A DNA stretch of 64,000 bases from Microbaculum marinisediminis. GTDB lineage: Bacteria; Pseudomonadota; Alphaproteobacteria; Rhizobiales; Tepidamorphaceae. Numbering within the stretch: position 1 is the stretch's first letter; the number at the start of each line of letters is the position of its first letter. The translations under genes were made by a program, and so were the position numbers. The notes beneath the pieces are model-generated. The model worked only from the letters and a program-made list of their open reading frames with translations, ran no database searches and was not told the origin of the DNA. The stretch lies in the NCBI RefSeq assembly GCF_025397915.1, contig NZ_JALIDZ010000003.1, forward strand, positions 506,501-570,500. The letters are read 5' to 3'. Of the stretch, positions 7,947-27,779 are shown in pieces.

Positions 7947-8755
7947 GGCAGGGTCTCCAGGATACGGGGCGCCAGCGCCAGCAACTGCTCGCGCACCGTG
8001 ACGATACCGCCGATCGCGACGATGGCGGGCGGATCCAACGCGGCGTCCTCGGCGTCGGCGGCGATGCGCGACAGGGTGGAGACCAGAACACGTTCTTCCG
8101 GCAGCGTCGCCGAAACGATGACGGCAGCCGGCGTGTCGGGGCGCAGACCGCCCTCGATCAGCGCGGCCGCGATCCGGTCCAGGGTCCTCATCGCCATGTA
8201 GAGGATGATCGGCTGTCCGGTCGCCGCCAGGGCCTTCCAGTCCAGTCCGTCCTCGGTATCGGCGCCGTGCCCGGTCGCCAGGATAACCGCCTGGTTGACG
8301 CCCCGGATCGTCGCCGGGATCGATGCGAGCGCGAGGCCCGCGAGCCCGGACGTGATGCCCGGGATGACGCGGAACGGGATCCGCTCGGCGGTCAGCGTCA
8401 GTGCCTCCTCGCCGCCGCGGCCGAAGACGAAGGGATCGCCGCCCTTGAGCCTGAGAACCCGCAGGTCCTGGCGCGCCAGCTCGACGAGGCGGCGGGTGAT
8501 GTCGACCTGGGTGGCCGAGGGCTTGCCGCCGCGCTTGCCCGCGAACTCCAGCCGCGCGCCGTCGCGGCAGAGATCGAGCACGCGGGCGTCGACCAGCGCG
8601 TCATGGACGACGACGTCGGCCTGGGCGAGGCCGGCGAGCGCACCGAGCGTCAAGTGGGAGGGATCGCCGGGGCCGGCGCCGGCAAGCCAGACATGGCCGG
8701 GCTCGAATACGGGCGCGCGTCCCATCAGGCGGTTGAGAAGATCGAGCGATGTCAT
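7943..8755 (-). CDS. cobA: uroporphyrinogen-III C-methyltransferase
   Basis: SAM-dependent enzyme that methylates uroporphyrinogen III at C2 and C7 to precorrin-2, the entry to the corrin branch. Family motifs: GAGPGDPSHLTL near the N-terminus, LKGGDPFVFGRGGEE, IPGITSG, and ATGHG. At 270 residues it is the stand-alone form without the CysG oxidase/ferrochelatase domain. I start at ATG 8755 (MTSLDLLNRL); a start 18 bases upstream is open. Its 5' end faces that of cbiD, with 62 bases between the chosen starts. The stop overlaps the cobB start as ATGA. Confidence 0.94.
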   Translation of the reverse strand: MTSLDLLNRLMGRAPVFEPGHVWLAGAGPGDPSHLTLGALAGLAQADVVVHDALVDARVLDLCRDGARLEFAGKRGGKPSATQVDITRRLVELARQDLRVLRLKGGDPFVFGRGGEEALTLTAERIPFRVIPGITSGLAGLALASIPATIRGVNQAVILATGHGADTEDGLDWKALAATGQPIILYMAMRTLDRIAAALIEGGLRPDTPAAVIVSATLPEERVLVSTLSRIAADAEDAALDPPAIVAIGGIVTVREQLLALAPRILETLP

Positions 8756-8817
8756 ATCGCTATTCCATTGCAAACGGGCCCGTGACAGGCCGGTGGCGAG
8801 GCGCTATCTGGCAGTTC

Positions 8818-9951
8818 ATGGACGAAGACCGCCCGCTCCGCCGGGGTTGGACCACCGGAACCTGCGCCACCGCCGCCGCGAAGGCGGCCTATACCGCATT
8901 GGTCACCGGCGACTTTCCCGATCCGGTTACGGTGACGCTGCCCGGCGGGCAGACGCCGGCCTTCGCGCTGGCCCGGCACAGCCTCGATGACGGCGCGGCG
9001 CGTGCCGGCGTTGTCAAGGATGCCGGCGACGATCCCGATGTCACCCATGGGGCGCTGATCGTCGCGACGGTCAGGGCGGGGCCGGACGGCAGCGGCGTGT
9101 GCTTCAAGGCGGGCGAGGGCGTCGGCACGGTGACCAAGCCGGGCCTGCCGATCCCGCCCGGCGAGCCGGCAATCAACCCGGTGCCGCGCCGGATGATCGC
9201 CCAGGCGATCGCCGAGGTCTGTGCCGAGACGGGCGCGAGCGGTGACGTCGAGGTCGAGATCGCCATCCCCGGCGGCGCGAAGCTCGCCGAAAGAACGATG
9301 AACGGACGGCTCGGCATCGTCGGCGGACTGTCGGTGCTCGGCACCACCGGGATCGTCGTGCCCTATTCGTGCGCGGCGTGGATCGCCTCGATCCACCGCG
9401 GGATCGACGTCGCCCGCGCCACGGGGCTCGACCACGTCGCCGGTGCCACCGGCGACACTTCCGAAAAGGCCGTCCAGCGACTGCATGGCCTGTCGGAGGC
9501 GGCCCTGCTCGACATGGGCGATTTCGTCGGCGGGACGCTCAAGTACCTGCGCGCGCATCCGGTGCCGAAGGTCACCATCGCCGGCGGCATCGCCAAGATG
9601 ACCAAGCTCGCGCAAGGGTTTCTCGACCTTCATTCGAAGCGCGGATCGGTCGACCTCGAGGCGCTCGCCGACATGGCGACCGGCCTGGCCACCGACGGGG
9701 GCGGATCGGCGGCGCTGCGGGCCAAAATCGTCGGCGCCAACACCACGCCCGCGGCCTTTGCCGAGGCCGAGGCGGAAGGCATCCGGCTTGGCGACACGGT
9801 CGCGGCGGCGGCCTGGGACACGGCGGCGCAGGTCATCGGCGGGACCGACATGGTGCTGGAAATCGTCGTGTTCGACCGCAACGGCGATCTGGTCGGTCGT
9901 GCGCCGTTTGCTCCGGTTCATGACGTGCCTCGCGAGCGGAAGCGGCGCTGA
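8818..9951 (+). CDS. cbiD: cobalt-precorrin-5B (C1)-methyltransferase CbiD
   Basis: Methylates C1 of the corrin precursor. The diagnostic N-terminal motif [15 protein letters not shown] is intact just after the ATG chosen at 8818 (MDEDRPLRR); [15 protein letters not shown] and a long Gly-rich C-terminal half follow. 377 residues, normal for the family. CbiD is best known from anaerobic pathways, where aerobic organisms use CobF; here it stands among aerobic-type enzymes and no cobF is in the window. It is on plus inside a minus-strand gene series, and its last 34 bases overlap the 3' end of cobM. The open frame extends 69 bases upstream over the cobA start, which I do not include. Confidence 0.93.
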
Positions 9952-10682
9952 TAGTCGGGATCGTAGAGGGCGCTCTCGCGAAAATCCTCGGATGCCAGAA
10001 CCGGTCCGACCAGGATCAGCGCGGTGCGTTCGATCGGTTGGGCGGCGACCGCGTCTGCGATGGTCGAGAGCCTGCCGCGGATGATGCGCTCCTCCGGCCA
10101 GCTCGCCCGATAGACGATGGCGACCGGGCAGTCCGGCCCGTAATGAGGCGTCAGGTCCCTGACGACCCGGTCGAGTGCGTGGATCGACAGGTGGATCGCG
10201 AGCGTCGCGCCGGACGCCGCGAAGGTCTCCAGCGTCTCGCCTTCCGGCATCGCCGACGCGCGGCCGGAGGTGCGGGTGAGGACGACAGACTGGGCGACCT
10301 CGGGAAGGGTGAGTTCCCGCCTCAGGGCGGCGGAGGCGGCGGCGAAGGCAGGCACCCCGGGCGTCACCGTATAGGGTATCCCCAGCGCTTCGAGCCGGCG
10401 GATCTGTTCGCCGAGCGCGCTCCATACCGACAGGTCGCCGGAATGCAGGCGCGCGACGTCCAGGCCGGCGGCCTGCGCTTTCTCGAATTCGGCGGCGATC
10501 TCGTCGAGGCTCATCGGCGCGGTGTCGACAATGCGCGCGCCGGGCGGGCAATGCTTCAGGATTTCGGCATTGACCAGCGAGCCGGCATAGAGACAGATGG
10601 AGCAGCTTGCCACGAGGTCGCGGCCGCGTACGGTGATGAGGTCGGGCGCGCCGGGGCCGGCGCCGATGAAATGCACCGTCAT
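9918..10682 (-). CDS. cobM: precorrin-4 C11-methyltransferase
   Basis: SAM-dependent corrin-ring methylase. 254 residues, starting [20 protein letters not shown], with the SAM-site motifs [21 protein letters not shown] and [13 protein letters not shown] and the conserved [11 protein letters not shown]. The ATG at 10682 overlaps the cobE stop as ATGA. The upstream in-frame extension is a shadow of cobE. The 3' end overlaps the convergent cbiD by 34 bases, so the two transcripts must be complementary at their ends. Confidence 0.94.
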
Positions 10683-11062
10683 CGTGGACCTCGCTCGGCA
10701 AGCGCGCAGGTGGCCATGGCGCTTGATATGCGCGGCAGAACGAGCCGCCCGTCGGTGCCGGCGGCGGCGAGTGCGGCGGCTTCGGCAACGGAGGCAAAGC
10801 CCGTCGCCTTCAAGGCGGTTTCCGACCGGGTCGGGCAGCGCGGCTCGACCGCCTTCATCGCCTTTTCGTCGATCAGAAGCAGTGGCAGGTTCATCCGTTC
10901 CGCCGCCTCGCGCGGGCCGGGCTCGTCGTCCTTGAAGCGCGGCGCCGCAAGCGCGGTGAACTTGCAATTGGCGATGCCGGCTTGTTTCACCGCATCCTCG
11001 ATCAACGCGACGATCTCGTCGGCGCCGCAGCCTTTCCGGCAGCCTATCCCCGCGACGATCAT
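10679..11062 (-). CDS. cobE: cobalamin biosynthesis protein CobE (CbiG C-terminal-like)
   Basis: A 127-residue protein beginning [18 protein letters not shown], the hallmark of the CobE/CbiG-C fold; [18 protein letters not shown] and [10 protein letters not shown] follow the expected pattern. CobE is genetically required for aerobic corrin synthesis in P. denitrificans, but its exact reaction is not settled. It lies between cobL and cobM with ATGA overlaps on both sides, so it is almost surely co-translated with them. Confidence 0.9.
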
Positions 11063-12344: not shown

Positions 12345-13118
12345 ATGACACTGAAGCTCCTGATCCTGGGCGGAACGACGGAAGCGAGCGCCCTTGCGCG
12401 CGCAATCAAGGACGACGCGCGTGTTTCCGCCGTCCTGTCGCTTGCCGGCACGACGAAAGCGCCGGCGAGGCCACCGATCCCCTTCCGTATCGGCGGTTTC
12501 GGCGGCGCCCAGGGGCTTGCCGACTATCTCATCGCCGAGCGGACGGATTTGCTGATCGACGCGACGCATCCTTTCGCCGCCGTGATGAAGGGCAACGCCG
12601 CCGAAGCGGCGCGCCGGGCCGGCGTGCCGCTCCTGGCCATCCGCAGGCCGGAATGGCGCGCCGAGCCGGGGGATGACTGGACGGTCGTTGCGGATATGAA
12701 ATCCGCTGCCGCAGCGCTTGGGCCCGCGCGCAAACGCGTGCTGCTCACCATCGGCCAGAAGGAGCTCGCGCCGTTCAAGGCCGCGCCGCAGCACGCTTAT
12801 GTCGTCCGCTCCGTCGACGCGCCGGCTGCCGACAGCCTGCCGCCGGACGCCCAGGTGATCACCGCGCGCGGACCGTTCGCCGAAGCCGACGAGCGCCGGC
12901 TGCTGGCGGAGCATGGAATCGAGGCGCTCGTCACCAAGAACTCGGGCGGAACGGCGACCCGAGCCAAGCTCGTCGCGGCGCGGTCGCTGGGCGTGCCGGT
13001 TATCATGGTGGCGCGTCCGCCGGCGCCCGACGTCGAGGCGGTCGAGACGGTCGAGGCGGCGCTTGCGTGGCTGGCACGTTTTCACGAGACCAACTCCTCC
13101 ACGCGGCGGGGCGTGTAG
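12345..13118 (+). CDS. cobK: precorrin-6A reductase
   Basis: NADPH-dependent reductase that converts precorrin-6A to dihydro-precorrin-6A. 257 residues; motifs are LLILGGTTEASALARA at the N-terminus, LLIDATHPFA near residue 70, the VLLTIGQKELAPF stretch and VTKNSGGTATRAKLVAA in the C-terminal half. It is on plus, divergent from cobL and convergent with cobJ, whose last 37 bases it overlaps. A riboswitch-led transcript running from cobJ to cobL would be antisense to this gene along its full length. Confidence 0.94.
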   Translation: MTLKLLILGGTTEASALARAIKDDARVSAVLSLAGTTKAPARPPIPFRIGGFGGAQGLADYLIAERTDLLIDATHPFAAVMKGNAAEAARRAGVPLLAIRRPEWRAEPGDDWTVVADMKSAAAALGPARKRVLLTIGQKELAPFKAAPQHAYVVRSVDAPAADSLPPDAQVITARGPFAEADERRLLAEHGIEALVTKNSGGTATRAKLVAARSLGVPVIMVARPPAPDVEAVETVEAALAWLARFHETNSSTRRGV

Positions 13119-13846
13119 ACCCAGGGCTCGCCATTTGGGCGGGGGACGAGGCGGGTGGCGCTCGAGCCGATCATCACGAGCGTGCGCATGTCGGCGCGGC
13201 TCGGATCGGCGGTCGCCAGATCGGCGATCTCGATCCGCTCGTCCGTCCGGCTGACGGCGGTCGCGAAGATCACCGGCGTGCTCGGCGCGCGGTGGGCGCG
13301 GAGCAGATCGAGCGCGGCGCCGAGCTGCCACGGCCGCGCCTTGGAGATCGGATTGTAGAGGGCGATGACGAAATCGGCGGCGGCCGCGGCTTCGATCCGG
13401 CGGGTGACGGTTTCCCAGGGTTTCAGGTTGTCCGACAGCGAAATCGCGCAGAAATCGTGGCCGAGCGGCGCGCCGAGGCGGGCGGCGGCGGCGAACATCG
13501 CGGAAATGCCGGGCACGACCGTCACCTCGATCTCCCGCCATTCCGGCTCGCCGTTCTCGATCGCCTCGAACACGGCCGCCGCCATGGCGAAAACGCCCGG
13601 ATCGCCTGAGGAAACGACGGCGACGTCCTTGCCGGCGCTGGCCAGTTCGAGCGCGGCGCGGGCGCGGGCGATCTCCTCGCGGTTATCCGACCCGTGTCGG
13701 CTCTGGCCGATTTTCGTCGGCACGCGGTCGAGATAGGTCGTGTAGCCGAACAGGTCGGTCGCGGCGTCGAGAACAGCACGCGCCTGCGGCGTCTGCAGGT
13801 CCTCGGCGCCCGGCCCGAGACCGACGATGGTGAGGCGGCCGGTCAT
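13082..13846 (-). CDS. cobJ: precorrin-3B C17-methyltransferase
   Basis: The ring-contracting methylase: it methylates C17 and drives extrusion of C20. 254 residues with VGLGPGAEDLQTPQA, LFGYTTYLDRV, SSGDPGVFAMAA, VPGISAMFAAAARLGAPLGHD and FVIALYNPISKARPW, all usual for CobJ. The ATG overlaps the cobI stop. It depends on the lactone made by CobG, which in this window looks truncated. Its 3' end runs 37 bases into the opposite strand of cobK. Confidence 0.95.
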   Translation of the reverse strand: MTGRLTIVGLGPGAEDLQTPQARAVLDAATDLFGYTTYLDRVPTKIGQSRHGSDNREEIARARAALELASAGKDVAVVSSGDPGVFAMAAAVFEAIENGEPEWREIEVTVVPGISAMFAAAARLGAPLGHDFCAISLSDNLKPWETVTRRIEAAAAADFVIALYNPISKARPWQLGAALDLLRAHRAPSTPVIFATAVSRTDERIEIADLATADPSRADMRTLVMIGSSATRLVPRPNGEPWVYTPRRVEELVS

Positions 13847-14586
13847 ACCGTCCTCCGTTCGGTCGGAACCAGGACGAGCGAGAAATAGGGGCCGTCGTCG
13901 TCCGGCTTGTCGGCGAGGCGGACGACCGTTTCCTCCGGCATGGTGCCGCGCTCGACATAGACGGCGCGGTCGAGCTTGCCGGCCCTGGCGAGGGCGGAGC
14001 GGACCTTGGCGAGGTTGCGGCCGGCCTTCATGACGACGGCGGCATCGGCGCCGGCAAGCCGTTCGGCGAGACCGTCCTCGTCCATGGTGCCGGAGACGAC
14101 GCAGAGCATGTCGTCGCCGCGGGTCATGGGAGCGCCGGCGCGGGCCCAGCAGCCGCTCATCGCGGTGATGCCGGGCACGACCTCTGCCGCGTAACGGCCG
14201 GCGAGGCGGTCGTGCAGATACATGTAGGAGCCGTAGAACAGCGGATCGCCCTCGCAGAGGACGGCGACGTCGCGGCCCTGGTCGAGCCGCGCGGCGACCT
14301 GCCGTGCCGCATCATCGTAAAAGGCGGCCATTTCGGTGCGATAACGCGGATCGCCGACGGGCACCTCGACCGTGAACGGGTATTCGAGGCGCAGTTCCTC
14401 CGCCGCCGGGTTGAACCGGCCCTCGACGATACGGCGCGCGTTGCCGCTCCGGCCGCGCTTTGAGAAGAAGGCGACGACCGGCGCTTCGCCGAGAATCCGC
14501 GCGGCCTTCAGCGTCATCAGCTCGGGATCGCCCGGGCCGACGCCGACGCCGTACAGTGTGCCGCTTTCGCCCGCCACGTCGCTCAT
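13843..14586 (-). CDS. cobI: precorrin-2 C20-methyltransferase
   Basis: SAM-dependent methylase making precorrin-3A. 247 residues from ATG 14586 (MSDVAGES); motifs GVGVGPGDPELMTLKAA, AVLCEGDPLFYGSYMYL, VVPGITAMSG and AAVVMKAGRNL match the family. It overlaps cobH upstream and cobJ downstream by four bases each. The longer frame upstream is a shadow of cobH. Confidence 0.95.
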   Translation of the reverse strand: MSDVAGESGTLYGVGVGPGDPELMTLKAARILGEAPVVAFFSKRGRSGNARRIVEGRFNPAAEELRLEYPFTVEVPVGDPRYRTEMAAFYDDAARQVAARLDQGRDVAVLCEGDPLFYGSYMYLHDRLAGRYAAEVVPGITAMSGCWARAGAPMTRGDDMLCVVSGTMDEDGLAERLAGADAAVVMKAGRNLAKVRSALARAGKLDRAVYVERGTMPEETVVRLADKPDDDGPYFSLVLVPTERRTV

Positions 14587-15230
14587 TCGGCCTCGCTCGC
14601 CAGCGCATTGACGGCGGCGACCGCCATGGCGCTGCCGCCCTTGCGGCCGCGCACGGTCATGAACGGCACGCGGCCGTCCGTCTCCAGCGCCTGTTTCGAT
14701 TCGACCGCGCCGACGAAGCCCACCGGCATGCCGATGATCGCCGCGGGCTTCGGTGCGCCGGCGTCGAGCATCTCGAACAGGTGGAACAGCGCGGTCGGGG
14801 CGTTGCCGATGGCGACCACCGCGCCGTCCATGCGGTCCCCCCACATCTCCATGGCGGCGGCGGTGCGGGTGTTGGCGATCATCTCGGCGAGGCCGGCGAC
14901 CTCCGGTTCCGACAGGGTGCAGACCACGCCGTTGCCGTTGGGCAGGCGGGGGCGGGTGATGCCGTTCGCCACCATCTGCGAATCGCAGAGGATCGGCTTG
15001 CCGGCCAGCAGGGCGTCGCGGGCGGCCCCGGTGAAATCGGGCGAAAACACCAGGTCGGCGGCCACATCGACCATGCCGCAGGCATGGATGACGCGCACCG
15101 CGACGCGCGCCTCGTCCGGCGTGAAGCGGGCGAGATCGGCCTCGGCGCGGATCGTCGCGAAGGAGCGGCGATAGATTTCGGCGCCGTCGCGGATGTAGTC
15201 GTATTGCTTCGGGTCCTGGGGGGCATTCAT
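14583..15230 (-). CDS. cobH: precorrin-8X methylmutase
   Basis: Moves the C11 methyl group to C12 to give hydrogenobyrinic acid. 215 residues from ATG 15230 (MNAPQDPKQYDYIRDGAEIY). The catalytic His is His49 in RVIHACGMVDVAADL. ILCDSQMVANGI and AIIGMPVGFVGAVESKQAL are further family signatures. The ATG overlaps the stop of the shortened cobG (ATGA). The in-frame upstream extension belongs to cobG sequence in another frame. Confidence 0.95.
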   Translation of the reverse strand: MNAPQDPKQYDYIRDGAEIYRRSFATIRAEADLARFTPDEARVAVRVIHACGMVDVAADLVFSPDFTGAARDALLAGKPILCDSQMVANGITRPRLPNGNGVVCTLSEPEVAGLAEMIANTRTAAAMEMWGDRMDGAVVAIGNAPTALFHLFEMLDAGAPKPAAIIGMPVGFVGAVESKQALETDGRVPFMTVRGRKGGSAMAVAAVNALASEAE

Positions 15231-16350
15231 CGGGAAAGCGTCTCCGCTGTTGTCGCCGCTCCGCCGGCCGGCGCGACATCGGGTCCGCGCAAGTGCCGGC
15301 GTGGGTCGGACGGGTCGGTGATGAGGTCGAGATCGGCCAGGGCCGAGAGAATTGCGGCGGTGTTGTCGTCGTTTACGGGCACGAAGGCAAGCGCGCGCCA
15401 CGGCGTCATGCGGACGGTCGCGTCGGCGAAGCGTTCGGACAGATCGGCGAGCGCGGCGAGCCTGTCCGCGTCGATGCGCCCGCGCGGCACGCCCGCGACG
15501 ATCGCGCCTTCGCGATGGCCCGCGAACGGGATCCGGCCGATCGGGCTGTCGGCCGGGGGCGGCGCGTACATGAGCTTCAGATGCGCGGCGCGGGTAGGTT
15601 GCACCCGGCCGGGGGCCACGTTGCCGGGGGGCACGCTGACAGCGTCCATGCGGCCAGAAACAAGAGGCCGGCCGGTCAGCTCGGCCATGGCAAGGATCGC
15701 GGTTTCACCGACCTTCTCCACCAACTCGCGCATCCTGTACGGCGGCGCGTCGGCGGGGCCGGCGAGTTCGAGGAACACCAGCGCCAGTCGCCGCGCCAGG
15801 GCAGGCGCTTCCTCCCGCCTACAGACGGCGAGCATGGCGCCGCCGCCGGGACCGATCGCCAGTTGGCCGTCCAGATCGCGCACAACGATATCGGCGTGCG
15901 CCTGCGGGACCGGCATCGTCCGGCCGCAATCGACAAGGAAGCCGAATTTCGGCGGCAGGGCGCGCAACGCCTGGGCTTCGTCCAGTTTCGCCTCGATGGC
16001 ACGCGCGATCGCATGGGAATCGAATGTGGTTTCCGGATCGTCGGGACCCAGGGGGTCGGCCGCGACGTTGCGCACCTCCTCGAGGGCGGCGTCGGCGCTG
16101 GCCAGGCCGTGCTCCAAAACGGTCGCGGCGAAGGTCCCGGCGGTATCGTGCCGCAGTCCGCGCACCTGCAGGTTCGCGCGATTGGTGAGGTCGATCAGGC
16201 CGTTGCCGCAGTCCCGCGCGGCGCGTGCGACCGCGCGCAGGCCCGGCGCCGGCAGGGTCGCCGCCGTCGGCTTGACCCGCACCAGCAATCCGTCGTCCGC
16301 CTCCATCGGCGTTACCACGCTCGGGCACCAGCCGACGCGTCCTTCCCGGC

Positions 16351-16354
<4 letters not shown>
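15227..16354 (-). CDS. cobG: precorrin-3B synthase CobG, apparently C-terminally shortened
   Basis: CobG oxidises precorrin-3A to the gamma-lactone precorrin-3B and is known to need an Fe-S centre. The N-terminal ferredoxin-like half-domain is clear (CPSVVTPMEADDGLLVRV; GNGLIDLTNRANLQVRGL), as are the middle LPPKFGFLVDCGR and the second half-domain ending in VRMTPWRALAF (residues 315-323). Family members continue with a C-x5-C pair and a later C-x3-C pair; here the chain stops at residue 375, about 55 residues after TPWR. Only four scattered cysteines exist (10, 49, 143, 178). It may be a deletion variant or non-functional. The stop overlaps cobH neatly, so this is not an obvious sequencing frameshift. 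Confidence 0.8.
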
Positions 16355-19974
<3,620 letters not shown>

Positions 19975-19975
19975 G

Positions 19976-21028
19976 TCAGCCTCGTATCGCCGCGTCGATC
20001 GCGGCCTGGTCGAGGCCGGTCTCGCCGATGACGACGAGGCGGCCGACGCGCTGTTCGGTCGGCGTCCACGGGCGGTCGTAGGCGTGGCGGAACCGGCCGC
20101 CGACGCCCTGCACGGCGAGCCGCATCGGCTTGGCGCTGACCGGCACGAAGCCCTTGATGCGCAGGATGTCGTGCGCCTCGGCGACCGCGCGGAGGCGGGC
20201 GACCAGGGTGTCGGGATCCGCGATCTCGCCGATCTCGACGACGAAGGACTCGAAATCGTCGTGCTCGTGGTCGTCGGCGCCGTCATGGTGCGAGGGGCGG
20301 GCGTCGAGATCGTCCTCGGCGGCGGCGCCGATGCCGAGCAGGACGGCGGGATCGATGCGGCCCTCGTAGGCCGAGACGACCTTCACCGCGCGCGGCACCG
20401 CGCCGGCGATCCCCTGCTTCAGGGCGTCGATGTCGGCCCCGTCGAGCAGGTCGGCCTTGTTGACGACGATCAGGTCGGCGGCGTTGAGCTGGTCCTCGTA
20501 GACCTCGGCGAGCGGGTTGTCGTGATCGACGGAGGGATCCTCCGCGCGCTGCCGGGCGATGGCGTCGGGATCGTCGGCGAACCGGCCGGTGGCGACGGCC
20601 GGGCCGTCGACCACGGCGATGACGCCGTCGACCGTCATGCGCGAGCGGATGGTCGGCCAGTCGAAGGCCTTGATCAGCGGCTTCGGCAGGGCCAGGCCCG
20701 AGGTCTCGATCAGCACGTGCTCGGGCGGATCGTCGCGGTCGAGCAGAGCCTGCATGGTCGGCAGGAAGTCGTCGGCCACCGTGCAGCAGATGCAGCCGTT
20801 GGCGAGCTCGACGATATCGTCGTCGGTGCAGCCGGCGATGCCGCAGCTCTTCAGGAGGTCGCCGTCGATGCCGAGCGAGCCGAATTCGTTGACGATGATG
20901 GCGATGCGGCGGCCGTTGGCGTTCTCCAGGACGTGGCGCACCAGCGTCGTCTTGCCGGCGCCGAGGAAGCCGGTGATCACGGTCGCGGGGATCTTCTCTC
21001 CGCTGAGCTTGGGGGCAGGCGCACTCAT
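19976..21028 (-). CDS. cobW: CobW family GTPase, cobalt chaperone
   Basis: A G3E GTPase of 350 residues. P-loop GFLGAGKT at residues 20-27, VNEFGSLGIDGDLL, the metal-site motif CICC in ELANGCICCTVADDF, NKADLL, and a His/Asp-rich linker (HHDGADDHEHDD) before the CobW_C domain. It is thought to deliver cobalt for corrin metallation, which fits its place directly before cobN. Starts at ATG 21028 in an ATGA overlap with the DUF1636 gene. The upstream open frame is a shadow. Confidence 0.94.
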   Translation of the reverse strand: MSAPAPKLSGEKIPATVITGFLGAGKTTLVRHVLENANGRRIAIIVNEFGSLGIDGDLLKSCGIAGCTDDDIVELANGCICCTVADDFLPTMQALLDRDDPPEHVLIETSGLALPKPLIKAFDWPTIRSRMTVDGVIAVVDGPAVATGRFADDPDAIARQRAEDPSVDHDNPLAEVYEDQLNAADLIVVNKADLLDGADIDALKQGIAGAVPRAVKVVSAYEGRIDPAVLLGIGAAAEDDLDARPSHHDGADDHEHDDFESFVVEIGEIADPDTLVARLRAVAEAHDILRIKGFVPVSAKPMRLAVQGVGGRFRHAYDRPWTPTEQRVGRLVVIGETGLDQAAIDAAIRG

Positions 21029-21432
21029 TCGGCGGCGTCCTTTATCGGGGATTGCGGGAAGGCGAGATGGGTCGGGAAGCGGCCGACGATGGCGTGGCGC
21101 AGCGACTCCGGCCGGCCGGAGCGCAGCACGGCGCCGCGGTCCGATTTCGCGTAGGCCGCGGCGTAGGCGATCAGGTCGTCGGCGTGGTCCGGGCCGATAT
21201 GGCCGACCATGTAGGCCCATTTGCCCGGCTGGGAGACGCCGGCGGAGCAGCCCTGCTCGCAATTGGCGAAGCAGACGACCGGTTCGACTTCGACGGGCGC
21301 GGCGTCGCCCATCGCGGCGAGCTTTTCGGCGACGGCCTCGTAGAGCAGCTTGCCGGGCGGCGTCTCGCCCTCGGCCAGGGGCGCGCCGTCCTGCTTGCAG
21401 GTGGTGCAGACGTAAAGGAAGGGTCGGGCCAC
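21025..21432 (-). CDS. DUF1636 domain protein, thioredoxin-fold metal/Fe-S candidate
   Basis: A 135-residue protein with an N-terminal CTTC pair (residues 9-12) and a second cluster CFANCEQGCSAG near residue 55, the pattern of the DUF1636 family. The fold resembles small 2Fe-2S ferredoxins. The family is regularly found with cobW and cobN, but its role is not established; cobalt handling or electron supply is inferred from context. It is the first gene after the cobalamin riboswitch and overlaps cobW by ATGA. Confidence 0.85.
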   Translation of the reverse strand: MARPFLYVCTTCKQDGAPLAEGETPPGKLLYEAVAEKLAAMGDAAPVEVEPVVCFANCEQGCSAGVSQPGKWAYMVGHIGPDHADDLIAYAAAYAKSDRGAVLRSGRPESLRHAIVGRFPTHLAFPQSPIKDAAE

Positions 21433-21583
21433 CGCTTCAATTCCCTCGTTCTTGGCGCGATCATCGCGCTGTCCAGGGTGCGTGGTCCGTTCCGCAGGCG
21501 ACGCCTTGTGGGAACTACGCCGACATCTCGGGTCGGTCGTCCGCGAATTGCCGGCGCACCCCGCCCGACGTCGCGGTCAGTTC
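21433..21583 (-). other. leader between riboswitch and DUF1636 gene
   Basis: About 150 bases of untranslated leader follow the riboswitch aptamer before the first gene. This is where an expression platform (terminator or ribosome-site sequestering helix) should act. It is GC-rich with several short inverted repeats, but I could not identify a clear T-run terminator by eye. Confidence 0.4.
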
Positions 21584-21782
21584 TGGACGGCAGGTCTCCT
21601 GGCTTGCGGATCGTCTCGCTTACCCGTCGCCTTCCCGGGCGCCACGACGTGGCACGTCGCCCAGTGGACATCAGACGGGCGGCTCTCCGCCTACAGTTGC
21701 GGGGGCAGCCGCGGCATTCGAAGCTTCCTTCGGCACCGCGTTCCCTTTTCACCTTCCTCAACAGGAAGGACCGTCACCGGAT
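21584..21782 (-). ncRNA. cobalamin (AdoCbl) riboswitch upstream of the DUF1636-cobW-cobN series
   Basis: Read on the minus strand, the conserved aptamer elements appear in order: GGTGACGGTCC at the 5' side (about 21780), GAAAAGGGAACGCGGTGC, GCCGCGGCTGCCCCCGCAAC, a CACTGG/GGGAAGGCG core, and the B12 box AGCCAGGAGACCTGCC at 21604-21589. This is a class-I cobalamin riboswitch. It should lower expression of the downstream cob genes when adenosylcobalamin is abundant. Confidence 0.93.
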
Positions 21783-21842
21783 TGACTATTGCCTTGCCGG
21801 GGGCGAGTCAATCGGGCTGGCAACGACGCAGCGAGGCGCATT

Positions 21843-26596: not shown

Positions 26597-26647
26597 AACG
26601 CGGCAACGCCCTCGACGGACGCAATCCGGTTCGATAGTGTCCGACTC

Positions 26648-26858
26648 GGATCGGTCCCGGACAGGCTGGCCTGAAAAGGCTCAGCCCGACGGGCGCAAAA
26701 GGGAACGCGGTGCCGGCCTGTCTCGACAGGACTTACCGAAAGCCGCGGCTGTCCCCGCAACTGTGGGCGCCAAGCCGTTCCTCCGTCATCCCACTGGCGT
26801 GACGCCGGGAAGGGGGAGGAAGGGCGCTAAAGGCGCGAGCCAGGAGACCTGCCGGTCC
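26648..26858 (+). ncRNA. cobalamin riboswitch upstream of cbtBA
   Basis: Conserved elements occur in order on plus: GGATCGGTCCCGGAC, GCAAAAGGGAACGCGGTGCC, GCCGCGGCTGTCCCCGCAAC, the CCCACTGG ... GGGAAGGGG core, and the B12 box AGCCAGGAGACCTGCC at 26838-26853. The leader then runs about 50 bases to the cbtB ATG at 26909. B12 should repress the cobalt importer, the usual arrangement in alphaproteobacteria. This accounts for the 312 bases without a gene after cobC. Confidence 0.94.
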
Positions 26859-26908
26859 GTGGGACAACTCTAGACGCCGCCGGTGGAGCGGCAACGCGGG
26901 TACATACG

Positions 26909-27085
26909 ATGACTAATCAGACGACGACGATTTCCCAATCTCTCGCCTCGACCCGTATCGGTGTCGCGGCCTTGGTGTTCCTGATGGGAGCCGTGCTGGT
27001 CTTCGGGGCCGGTTTCGCGCATCCGCAGGCCCTGCATGACGCCGCGCACGACGCGCGTCACGCGATGTCTTTCCCCTGCCACTGA
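26909..27085 (+). CDS. cbtB: cobalt transporter subunit CbtB
   Basis: A 58-residue protein with one membrane segment (residues about 17-37, GVAALVFLMGAVLVFGAGF) and a His-rich tail (HPQALHDAAHDARHAMSFPCH), the CbtB pattern. The tail probably binds cobalt. It is first in the riboswitch-controlled unit and is followed after 7 bases by cbtA. The CbtAB system is inferred from riboswitch linkage to be a cobalt importer; its mechanism is not well studied. Confidence 0.9.
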   Translation: MTNQTTTISQSLASTRIGVAALVFLMGAVLVFGAGFAHPQALHDAAHDARHAMSFPCH

Positions 27086-27092
27086 TCGCGTC

Positions 27093-27779
27093 ATGCTGAT
27101 GCGCATATTGGCCGGCGGCCTCATCGGAGGCATCGCCGGAGGTATCGTCGTGGGTGCGATCGAATCCGTCACGACGACACCGCTCATCCTGCACGCCGAG
27201 CAGTTCGAGACGACCGACGTGGCAAGCGCCGCGCAGATCCTGCTCGCCCACGTCCACAGCGGCGAGGTGGCAGCGGAAGGCGGCGACGCGATGCGGACGA
27301 TCCTGACCTATACGGCGAGCGTGATCGTCGCGGTCGGCTTCGCCTGGATGCTGCTGGCGGCAATGTTCGTCAAGGGCGCCGAGATCACCGCGCGCAGCGT
27401 CATTCCCTGGGCGGTCGCCGGCTTCGTCGCGACCGGGCTCGCGCCGGCCTTCGGGCTCGCGCCCGAACTGCCGGGCGCCTACGCGGCCGAACTGGAACTG
27501 AGGCAGATCTGGTGGGTCGGCACGGCGGTGGCCACCGCGCTGGGCCTGGCGGCGATCTTCTTCGGCCGGCATGTCGTCTGGTCGATCGTCGGCGTCGGCC
27601 TGATCGTGCTGCCGCACATGATCGGCGCGCCGCACCCCGACGACATGGGCAGCCCCGTGCCGGCGGAGCTTGCCGCCCAGTTCGTGTCGGCCTCGCTGGT
27701 GGTTCAGGCGCTGATGTGGGTCGTTCCCGCCGTCATCGCAGGCTTCGCCATCGAGAGGATGCGTCCGGCGGCGGCCTGA
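27093..27779 (+). CDS. cbtA: cobalt transporter subunit CbtA
   Basis: Integral membrane protein of 228 residues with about five hydrophobic segments (RILAGGLIGGIAGGIVVGAI, ILTYTASVIVAVGFAWMLLA, SVIPWAVAGFVATGLAP, ALGLAAIFFG, ALMWVVPAVIAGFAI). Conserved features are LPHMIGAPHPDDMGSPVPAEL and the periplasmic LAPELPGAYAAELELRQIWW. The start at 27093 (MLMRILAGG) is chosen because the longer frame overlaps cbtB. A rho-independent terminator follows 24 bases after the stop, so the unit is cbtBA only. Confidence 0.92.
   Translation: MLMRILAGGLIGGIAGGIVVGAIESVTTTPLILHAEQFETTDVASAAQILLAHVHSGEVAAEGGDAMRTILTYTASVIVAVGFAWMLLAAMFVKGAEITARSVIPWAVAGFVATGLAPAFGLAPELPGAYAAELELRQIWWVGTAVATALGLAAIFFGRHVVWSIVGVGLIVLPHMIGAPHPDDMGSPVPAELAAQFVSASLVVQALMWVVPAVIAGFAIERMRPAAA

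Follow-up and report, generated by a model that had tools for sequence, protein, structure and literature searches.

A short CobG without the C-terminal [4Fe-4S] module in Microbaculum marinisediminis and its relatives, predicted to act in vitamin B12 synthesis

Can a CobG that lacks the cysteines of its [4Fe-4S] centre still take part in vitamin B12 synthesis, or is its step carried out in some other way? In excerpts of PMC7242693, CobG is described as an O2-dependent monooxygenase that hydroxylates precorrin-3A at C20, and CobZ (Rhodobacter capsulatus type) as an alternative enzyme for the CobG step. The question was raised by the window, a stretch of 64,000 nucleotides from the genome of Microbaculum marinisediminis (G000), in which a first-pass annotation had noticed a CobG without the C-terminal Fe-S cysteine region and had offered three readings: that the step is done by another enzyme such as CobZ, that the protein works without the cluster, or that the pathway is blocked while its other genes are kept. 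CobG reportedly contains a mononuclear non-haem iron besides an Fe-S centre (by the title of a 2009 JBC paper) and CobZ, by the title of the paper on it, is said to be a flavoprotein. No description of a cluster-less CobG was found in the titles or abstract openings of the open-access literature searched, and in the one paper among those listed that mentions both Tepidamorphus and B12 (PMC12583986) the passages concern other matters. The gene is an uninterrupted open reading frame on the minus strand that runs from ATG at 16354 to TGA at 15229-15227 and encodes 375 residues:

15227..16354, minus strand: short cobG, with two PF03460 half domains, a sub-threshold PF01077 stretch and no [4Fe-4S] cysteine pairs
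15227..15301, minus strand: tail particular to this lineage (residues 352-375 plus the stop codon), standing where full-length CobG has its cluster module of ~90 residues
15227..15230, minus strand: ATGA in which the stop of cobG overlaps the start of cobH, identical in the related genomes G001, G002 and G006
15578..15673, minus strand: variable linker joining the central part to the second PF03460 half (residues ~228-259)

The window protein scored 187.4 bits against TIGR02435 over residues 7-356 (model positions 2-328 of 388), short of the curated cut-off of 234.8, which was missed likewise by the short forms of G002 and G006 (183-187 bits for the three). PF03460 (NIR_SIR_ferr half domain) was found in two stretches at 85.3 bits, above the Pfam gathering score of 24, and PF01077 (NIR_SIR 4Fe-4S domain) reached 21 bits over profile positions 4-68 of 158, below its gathering score of 27. 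Likeness to full-length relatives continued through TPWR (residues 317-320) to DPRR (350-353) and ended where the first cysteine pair would be expected; the protein terminates 22 residues past DPRR, and the family goes on with a CxGxxxC and an SGCxKGC pair. The first-pass annotation had placed the stop at 375 correctly and the point of divergence too early, directly after TPWR (about residue 320), as the TIGR02435 alignment extends some 30 residues further, through DPRR. The cysteines, four and scattered as had been reported, lie at residues 10, 49, 143 and 178, and no C-x5-C or C-x3-C pair is possible among them. By TIGR02435 score and cysteine pairs, the short CobG is not a member of CobG as so defined. 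AlphaFold prediction on three sequences gave a mean pLDDT of 57.6, and all 31 matches at E<=0.001 in a Foldseek search with this low-confidence model were sulphite or nitrite reductases (query TM 0.27-0.36, rmsd 17.2-19.4); the model agrees weakly with a sulphite/nitrite reductase fold family and carries no information on the active site.

The same short form was found in two genomes of the same genus (G001 and G002) and in one of another genus of the same family (G006), with lengths of 402, 422 and 399 residues and identities to the window protein of 66, 55 and 54% over the aligned part, respectively; the common deletion in sister strains that had been proposed as a check is therefore present. 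A motif scan of the three relatives detected no C-x5-C or C-x3-C pair, which, with the cysteine positions above, bears out the original observation. All four short CobGs end in Ser-Arg and overlap cobH through ATGA, as cleanly as first described for the window. Close relatives with proven B12 synthesis that share the short form with a different cysteine set had been named as evidence against that observation; close relatives do share the form, but none of them is a proven B12 producer, and the cysteines common to all four are only C10 and C143. The first-pass annotation had also allowed for a sequence error whose correction would restore the missing part. Because G001, G002 and G006 have the same short form and the same ATGA overlap, the short gene is not a sequencing error: the gene ends in the same way in each of four separate assemblies, at an in-frame stop that overlaps cobH, and the missing module was found in no frame of the genome. 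Although other apparent short forms are artefactual or look so (G079, G373, G140 and G736), we regard an error of sequence or assembly as a practically negligible explanation here.

Outside this clade, both cysteine pairs were present in all 20 other ORFs of the motif scan (two of which, L026 and L034, resemble nitrite reductases; L020, L031 and L033 lay outside that scan) and in 26 of 30 ORFs of a second set, G011, G056 and G059 belonging to both. The remaining four stop at a contig end (G140 and G736), contain a frameshift (G079) or contain an N before a shifted frame (G373), and were not counted as independent short CobGs. The gene of G079 (L095, 867-2159; another family) is a full-length-type CobG with a frameshift just past the first motif cysteine, either a sequence error or a recent pseudogene. 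A search that covered 61 genomes gave a match in 27. An order-wide search covered 397 genomes, of which 210 matched TIGR02435 at E<=1e-45, nitrite and sulphite reductases included; among the matches listed, in which CobG was told from nitrite/sulphite reductase by score and start position, that of G192 alone (7-358, with a reductase-like start) stops short of model position 384. When 80 genomes, mostly weak scorers, were searched again, 79 gave a CobG-type match, 74 of these reaching at least model position 376 and the other five being G000, G002, G006, G079 and G373. Class-wide (385 genomes, 54 matching), the only early-ending CobG-type rows besides G000 were G736 and G727, the latter with a first stretch of 2-168 yet 255.5 bits with its neighbours in frame.

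A tree of 46 CobG rows was built from the part before the lost module only and rooted at its midpoint. The four short forms made up one group (support 100/99) among full-length CobGs, adjoining full-length CobGs of another family (f13; support 99/95); given this one group, a single loss of the module in the ancestor of the clade would be the simplest account. Across the variable linker, the distance between R207 and G292 is 85-124 in the four short forms against a median of 51.5 (range 44-132) in 42 full-length CobGs, three of which have at least 85. The cobG linker of G001 (L040, 11122-11237) contains two stretches with 90% and 81% likeness to elements with palindromes in the interval from cobK to cobJ of that genome (7886-8233), and intergenic repeats seem to have been inserted in frame into this linker.

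The short cobG sits between cobN and cobH, with a 4-base overlap with each, in a cluster with the following features:

8749..9951, plus strand: cbiD (494 bits, cut-off 348)
10679-11062: 127-residue protein matching the C-terminal part of CbiG (85 bits, below cut-off), which we take to be CobE
13082..13846, minus strand: cobJ, precorrin-3B C17-methyltransferase, which uses the CobG product (NCBIfam model)
13843..14586, minus strand: cobI, precorrin-2 C20-methyltransferase, which makes the CobG substrate (NCBIfam model)
14583..15230, minus strand: cobH, precorrin-8X methylmutase (NCBIfam model, at or above cut-off)
16351..20286, minus strand: ORF with cobN, exact start not fixed (by eye and position), overlapping cobG by 4 bases
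21025..21432, minus strand: DUF1636 protein with several cysteines (Pfam)
21572..21790, minus strand: cobalamin riboswitch upstream of the DUF1636-cobW-cobN-cobG run (riboswitch search)
26635-26870, plus strand: second cobalamin riboswitch, preceding the CbtA cobalt-transporter gene
27036-27779, plus strand: cbtA, CbtA cobalt transporter, 3' of the second riboswitch

NCBIfam models at or above their cut-offs also named cobK, cobL (CbiE and CbiT parts), cobM and cobA, and a CobB-type amidotransferase was recognised by Pfam; the names of cobN, cobW, cobU, cobQ, cobD and cobC come from inspection by eye and from synteny, with a family match for cobC only (an aminotransferase in Pfam). The gene order is common to the short-CobG clade and to G004 and G011, which have a full-length CobG, in a comparison that placed only the window's own genes in the other clusters and excluded cobO matches. 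An anaerobic pathway gene, cbiD, lies inside this largely aerobic cob cluster in G000, as it does in G001 and G002; CobF above cut-off was found in none of these three genomes. A tie of the short CobG to CbiD in place of CobF was rejected because G006 pairs its short CobG with CobF (314 bits), an enzyme of the oxygen-dependent route.

Constraint on the core was measured against 42 full-length rows, selected for carrying the two cysteine pairs, out of loci retrieved by their similarity to the short forms (44 rows minus the nitrite-reductase-like L026 and L034; L031 was skipped for length). All four short forms kept each of the 22 core columns whose conservation among these rows is 90% or more (21/21 with L026 and L034 included): C10, P11, D21, G22, R26, G50, G52, R59, Q63, R65, G66, N96, P101, K136, D142, G144, D155, G171, R207, G273, G292 and P318. 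Each short form kept 0/9 of the C-terminal-module columns at the same level of conservation. Under leave-one-out, full-length rows kept a mean of 0.94 of the core columns, and 20 of 42 kept all; at a threshold of 80% the short forms kept 46-47 of 51 columns (full-length average 0.87) and at 70% they kept 61-63 of 76 (0.84). R26, R59, N96 (with R95) and K136 align with conserved residues of tobacco nitrite reductases. In nitrite reductases the basic ones among these residues bind sirohaem and the anion, those aligned to R26, R59 and K136 lining this site.

The ratio of dN in cobG (residues 6-226) to dN in cobH averaged 2.49 (2.17-2.86) over six short pairs and 3.02 (sd 0.57, 2.12-5.13) over 63 full-length pairs, the pairs being non-independent, restricted to cobH identities of 0.74-0.92 and taken after pairs with cobH dN <0.02 had been dropped and G004 and others with short matches left out. 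With duplicate genes removed, the full-length mean was 3.03 over 57 pairs, nine of which fell below 2.49. The ratio is not higher than in full-length genes, and the short CobG core is therefore no less constrained than the ordinary CobG core. dN/dS over the same residues was 0.27-0.42 in short pairs, NG86 dS being rough here. For the whole gene, linker and tail included, cobG ranked first in dN/dS (0.32-0.46) among eight cob genes in every one of the five clade pairs measured; this is read as a family trait because cobG is fastest or nearly so between full-length clusters too (G004 and G011, one pair: cobG dN 0.74 and cobL 0.75, the fastest).

These values bear on the reading in which the pathway is blocked at the CobG step and cobG is decaying. 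Loss of a conserved cofactor module, a score under the CobG cut-off and the highest dN/dS of the eight cob genes speak for such decay. However, the frame is open in four genomes, the core has a dN/dS of 0.27-0.42 and no excess dN relative to cobH, and most pathway genes sought are kept together with two riboswitches and CbtA. MetE above cut-off was likewise found in none of the four short-CobG genomes (G001 and G006 have MetE-like C-terminal matches of 94-99 bits; G005 and G007 have MetE), which suggests, short of proof of synthesis, that these genomes need B12. A blocked pathway, as the first-pass annotation had also considered, fits poorly with strictly conserved core residues that are kept and a core whose evolution is unrelaxed, and we hold it to be very improbable.

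Other enzymes for the step were sought in ten genomes. CobZ (TIGR02485) above its cut-off of 372.55 bits was found in none of the four short-CobG genomes, with best CobZ-like scores of 118.5 (G000), 99.4 (G001), 65.5 (G002) and 267.5 bits (G006); the earlier suggestion that CobZ does the step is therefore not supported for the window genome. The 267.5-bit protein of G006 was not taken as CobZ: by eye its neighbours look catabolic, and the ORFs after it appear to encode a further flavoprotein, an enzyme of the thiamine-diphosphate type and transporters. Absence of CobZ is weaker for G006 than for the other three, and absences in G001 and G002 are weak in that these assemblies are 85-86% complete. 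Among the ten genomes only G007 (same family) has CobZ above cut-off (617 bits), and no CobG match was found there. A second CobG was found neither in G000 (E<=0.001), nor in G002 and G006 (1e-40), nor among the matches listed for G001 (1e-45); the second TIGR02435 match of G000 looks by eye like a sulphite-reductase-type gene that adjoins a uroporphyrinogen methyltransferase, and was rejected. The N-terminal domain of CbiG, which belongs to the anaerobic route, was absent from 9/10 genomes, including all four with a short CobG, and present only in G005, which is judged from this domain to have an anaerobic-type pathway. Four solutions to the ring-contraction step are seen within the family, namely short CobG (G000, G001, G002 and G006), full-length CobG (G004), CobZ (G007) and the anaerobic type of G005, and in G003 (74% complete) none of CobG, CobZ and the CbiG N-terminal domain was found. 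The full-length CobG of G004 lies elsewhere in the tree than the short group. The cob proteins of G004 (L043) are mostly less like those of the window than are those of G011, from another family; this and the position of its CobG in another branch suggest that a cob cluster has been exchanged between lineages.

Another explanation is an unrecognised enzyme that hydroxylates precorrin-3A, the short CobG being kept for some other purpose: it might retain precorrin-3A until CobJ takes it over, or assist the cobN-cobG-cobH run in translation or assembly. Active enzymes do not usually lose a cofactor module, members of the same family use other solutions (CobZ in G007, anaerobic-type CbiG in G005), and the ATGA overlaps would make the ORF useful for coupled translation. 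Pure translational coupling, on the other hand, would not keep 22 of 22 core residues, and the clusters are collinear, as far as placement of the window's own genes can tell. We consider this explanation unlikely, though with more in its favour than decay.

The cluster might instead be supplied from elsewhere, by a separate small Fe-S protein that docks on the short CobG or by C10 and C143 binding a cluster between two subunits. C10 is found in 4/4 short forms and 41/42 full-length rows, and C143, seven residues after K136, in 4/4 short forms and only 2/42 full-length rows; the run of genes that contains cobG also encodes a DUF1636 protein. Against this, there are just two invariant cysteines per chain, and no CobG-type C-terminal module was found elsewhere in the four genomes. 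With a module profile made from 14 sequences, full-length CobG scored 117-129 bits in 4/4 control genomes, and no separate copy of the lost module was found in the four short-CobG genomes, which gave 30-32 bits, in G000 and G006 at the reductase-type gene. In G000, searched in all frames at E<=1, the only place found was the sulphite-reductase-type one (30.9 bits), so that the statement that the missing motifs occur in no other frame holds for the whole genome; one further match each in G001 and G002 (12.6-13.2 bits, E 0.3-0.5) was taken as chance. DUF1636 proteins are found beside full-length CobGs too and are therefore not specific to the short form; as an electron donor of the short CobG, the DUF1636 protein is a candidate by guess. 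We rate supply of a cluster from outside as distinctly unlikely.

By tree, gene position and core residues the short CobG is a CobG orthologue, and it is predicted to act like CobG. Of the three readings first offered, the one in which the protein works without the cluster appears to fit best, and we favour, with fair but guarded confidence, a CobG-like precorrin-3A monooxygenase that has no [4Fe-4S] cluster of its own. On this explanation the C-terminal module with the cluster would have disappeared from a CobG orthologue a single time, in the common ancestor of a small clade of Tepidamorphus-like bacteria, and the protein would still hydroxylate C20 of precorrin-3A as part of a B12 pathway of largely aerobic type. 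The short form retains the presumed substrate cleft. Precorrin-3A would bind in what was once the sirohaem cleft, above the mononuclear iron, where O2 would be activated, and electrons would reach the iron from an outside donor rather than from a built-in [4Fe-4S] cluster; C143 may belong to the compensation for loss of the module. Activity, iron content and donor are what we infer from the comparison of sequences.

A further-reaching reading, to which we give slightly less than an even chance, is that the short form is a natural CobG with only the mononuclear iron, the [4Fe-4S] cluster having been shed, perhaps with the involvement of C143, and that the cluster of ordinary CobG either serves as an auxiliary relay for electrons or is left over from a sulphite-reductase ancestor, outside the oxygen chemistry. 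If this is true, the cluster of ordinary CobG is not part of that chemistry. Sequence comparison hardly reveals what the cluster does, since its cysteines are present in every other intact CobG checked; the short-CobG lineage would offer a direct test of whether precorrin-3B is made without it, and from which electron donor. An active short form would also provide a cluster-free CobG for engineered B12 production. The TIGR02435 cut-off omits such genes (G000, G002 and G006), and annotation would therefore count the step as missing. A family with several solutions is a useful setting in which to compare the ring-contraction step.

Compared with known systems, the short CobG stands nearest to CobG (TIGR02435), with which it has in common its place among the genes, the core residues, the pair of PF03460 half domains and the expected pathway step, but it lacks the CxGxxxC/SGCxKGC module, scores below the curated cut-off and is 375-422 residues long, with a linker that exceeds that of most full-length CobGs. 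CobZ (TIGR02485) is a distinct enzyme for the same step and is not above cut-off in short-CobG genomes. Sirohaem-dependent sulphite and nitrite reductases, in which a [4Fe-4S] cluster is coupled to sirohaem, differ from the short CobG, which has neither their cluster motifs nor the module that bears them, and share with it the fold family, as indicated by sequence profile and by the low-confidence model.
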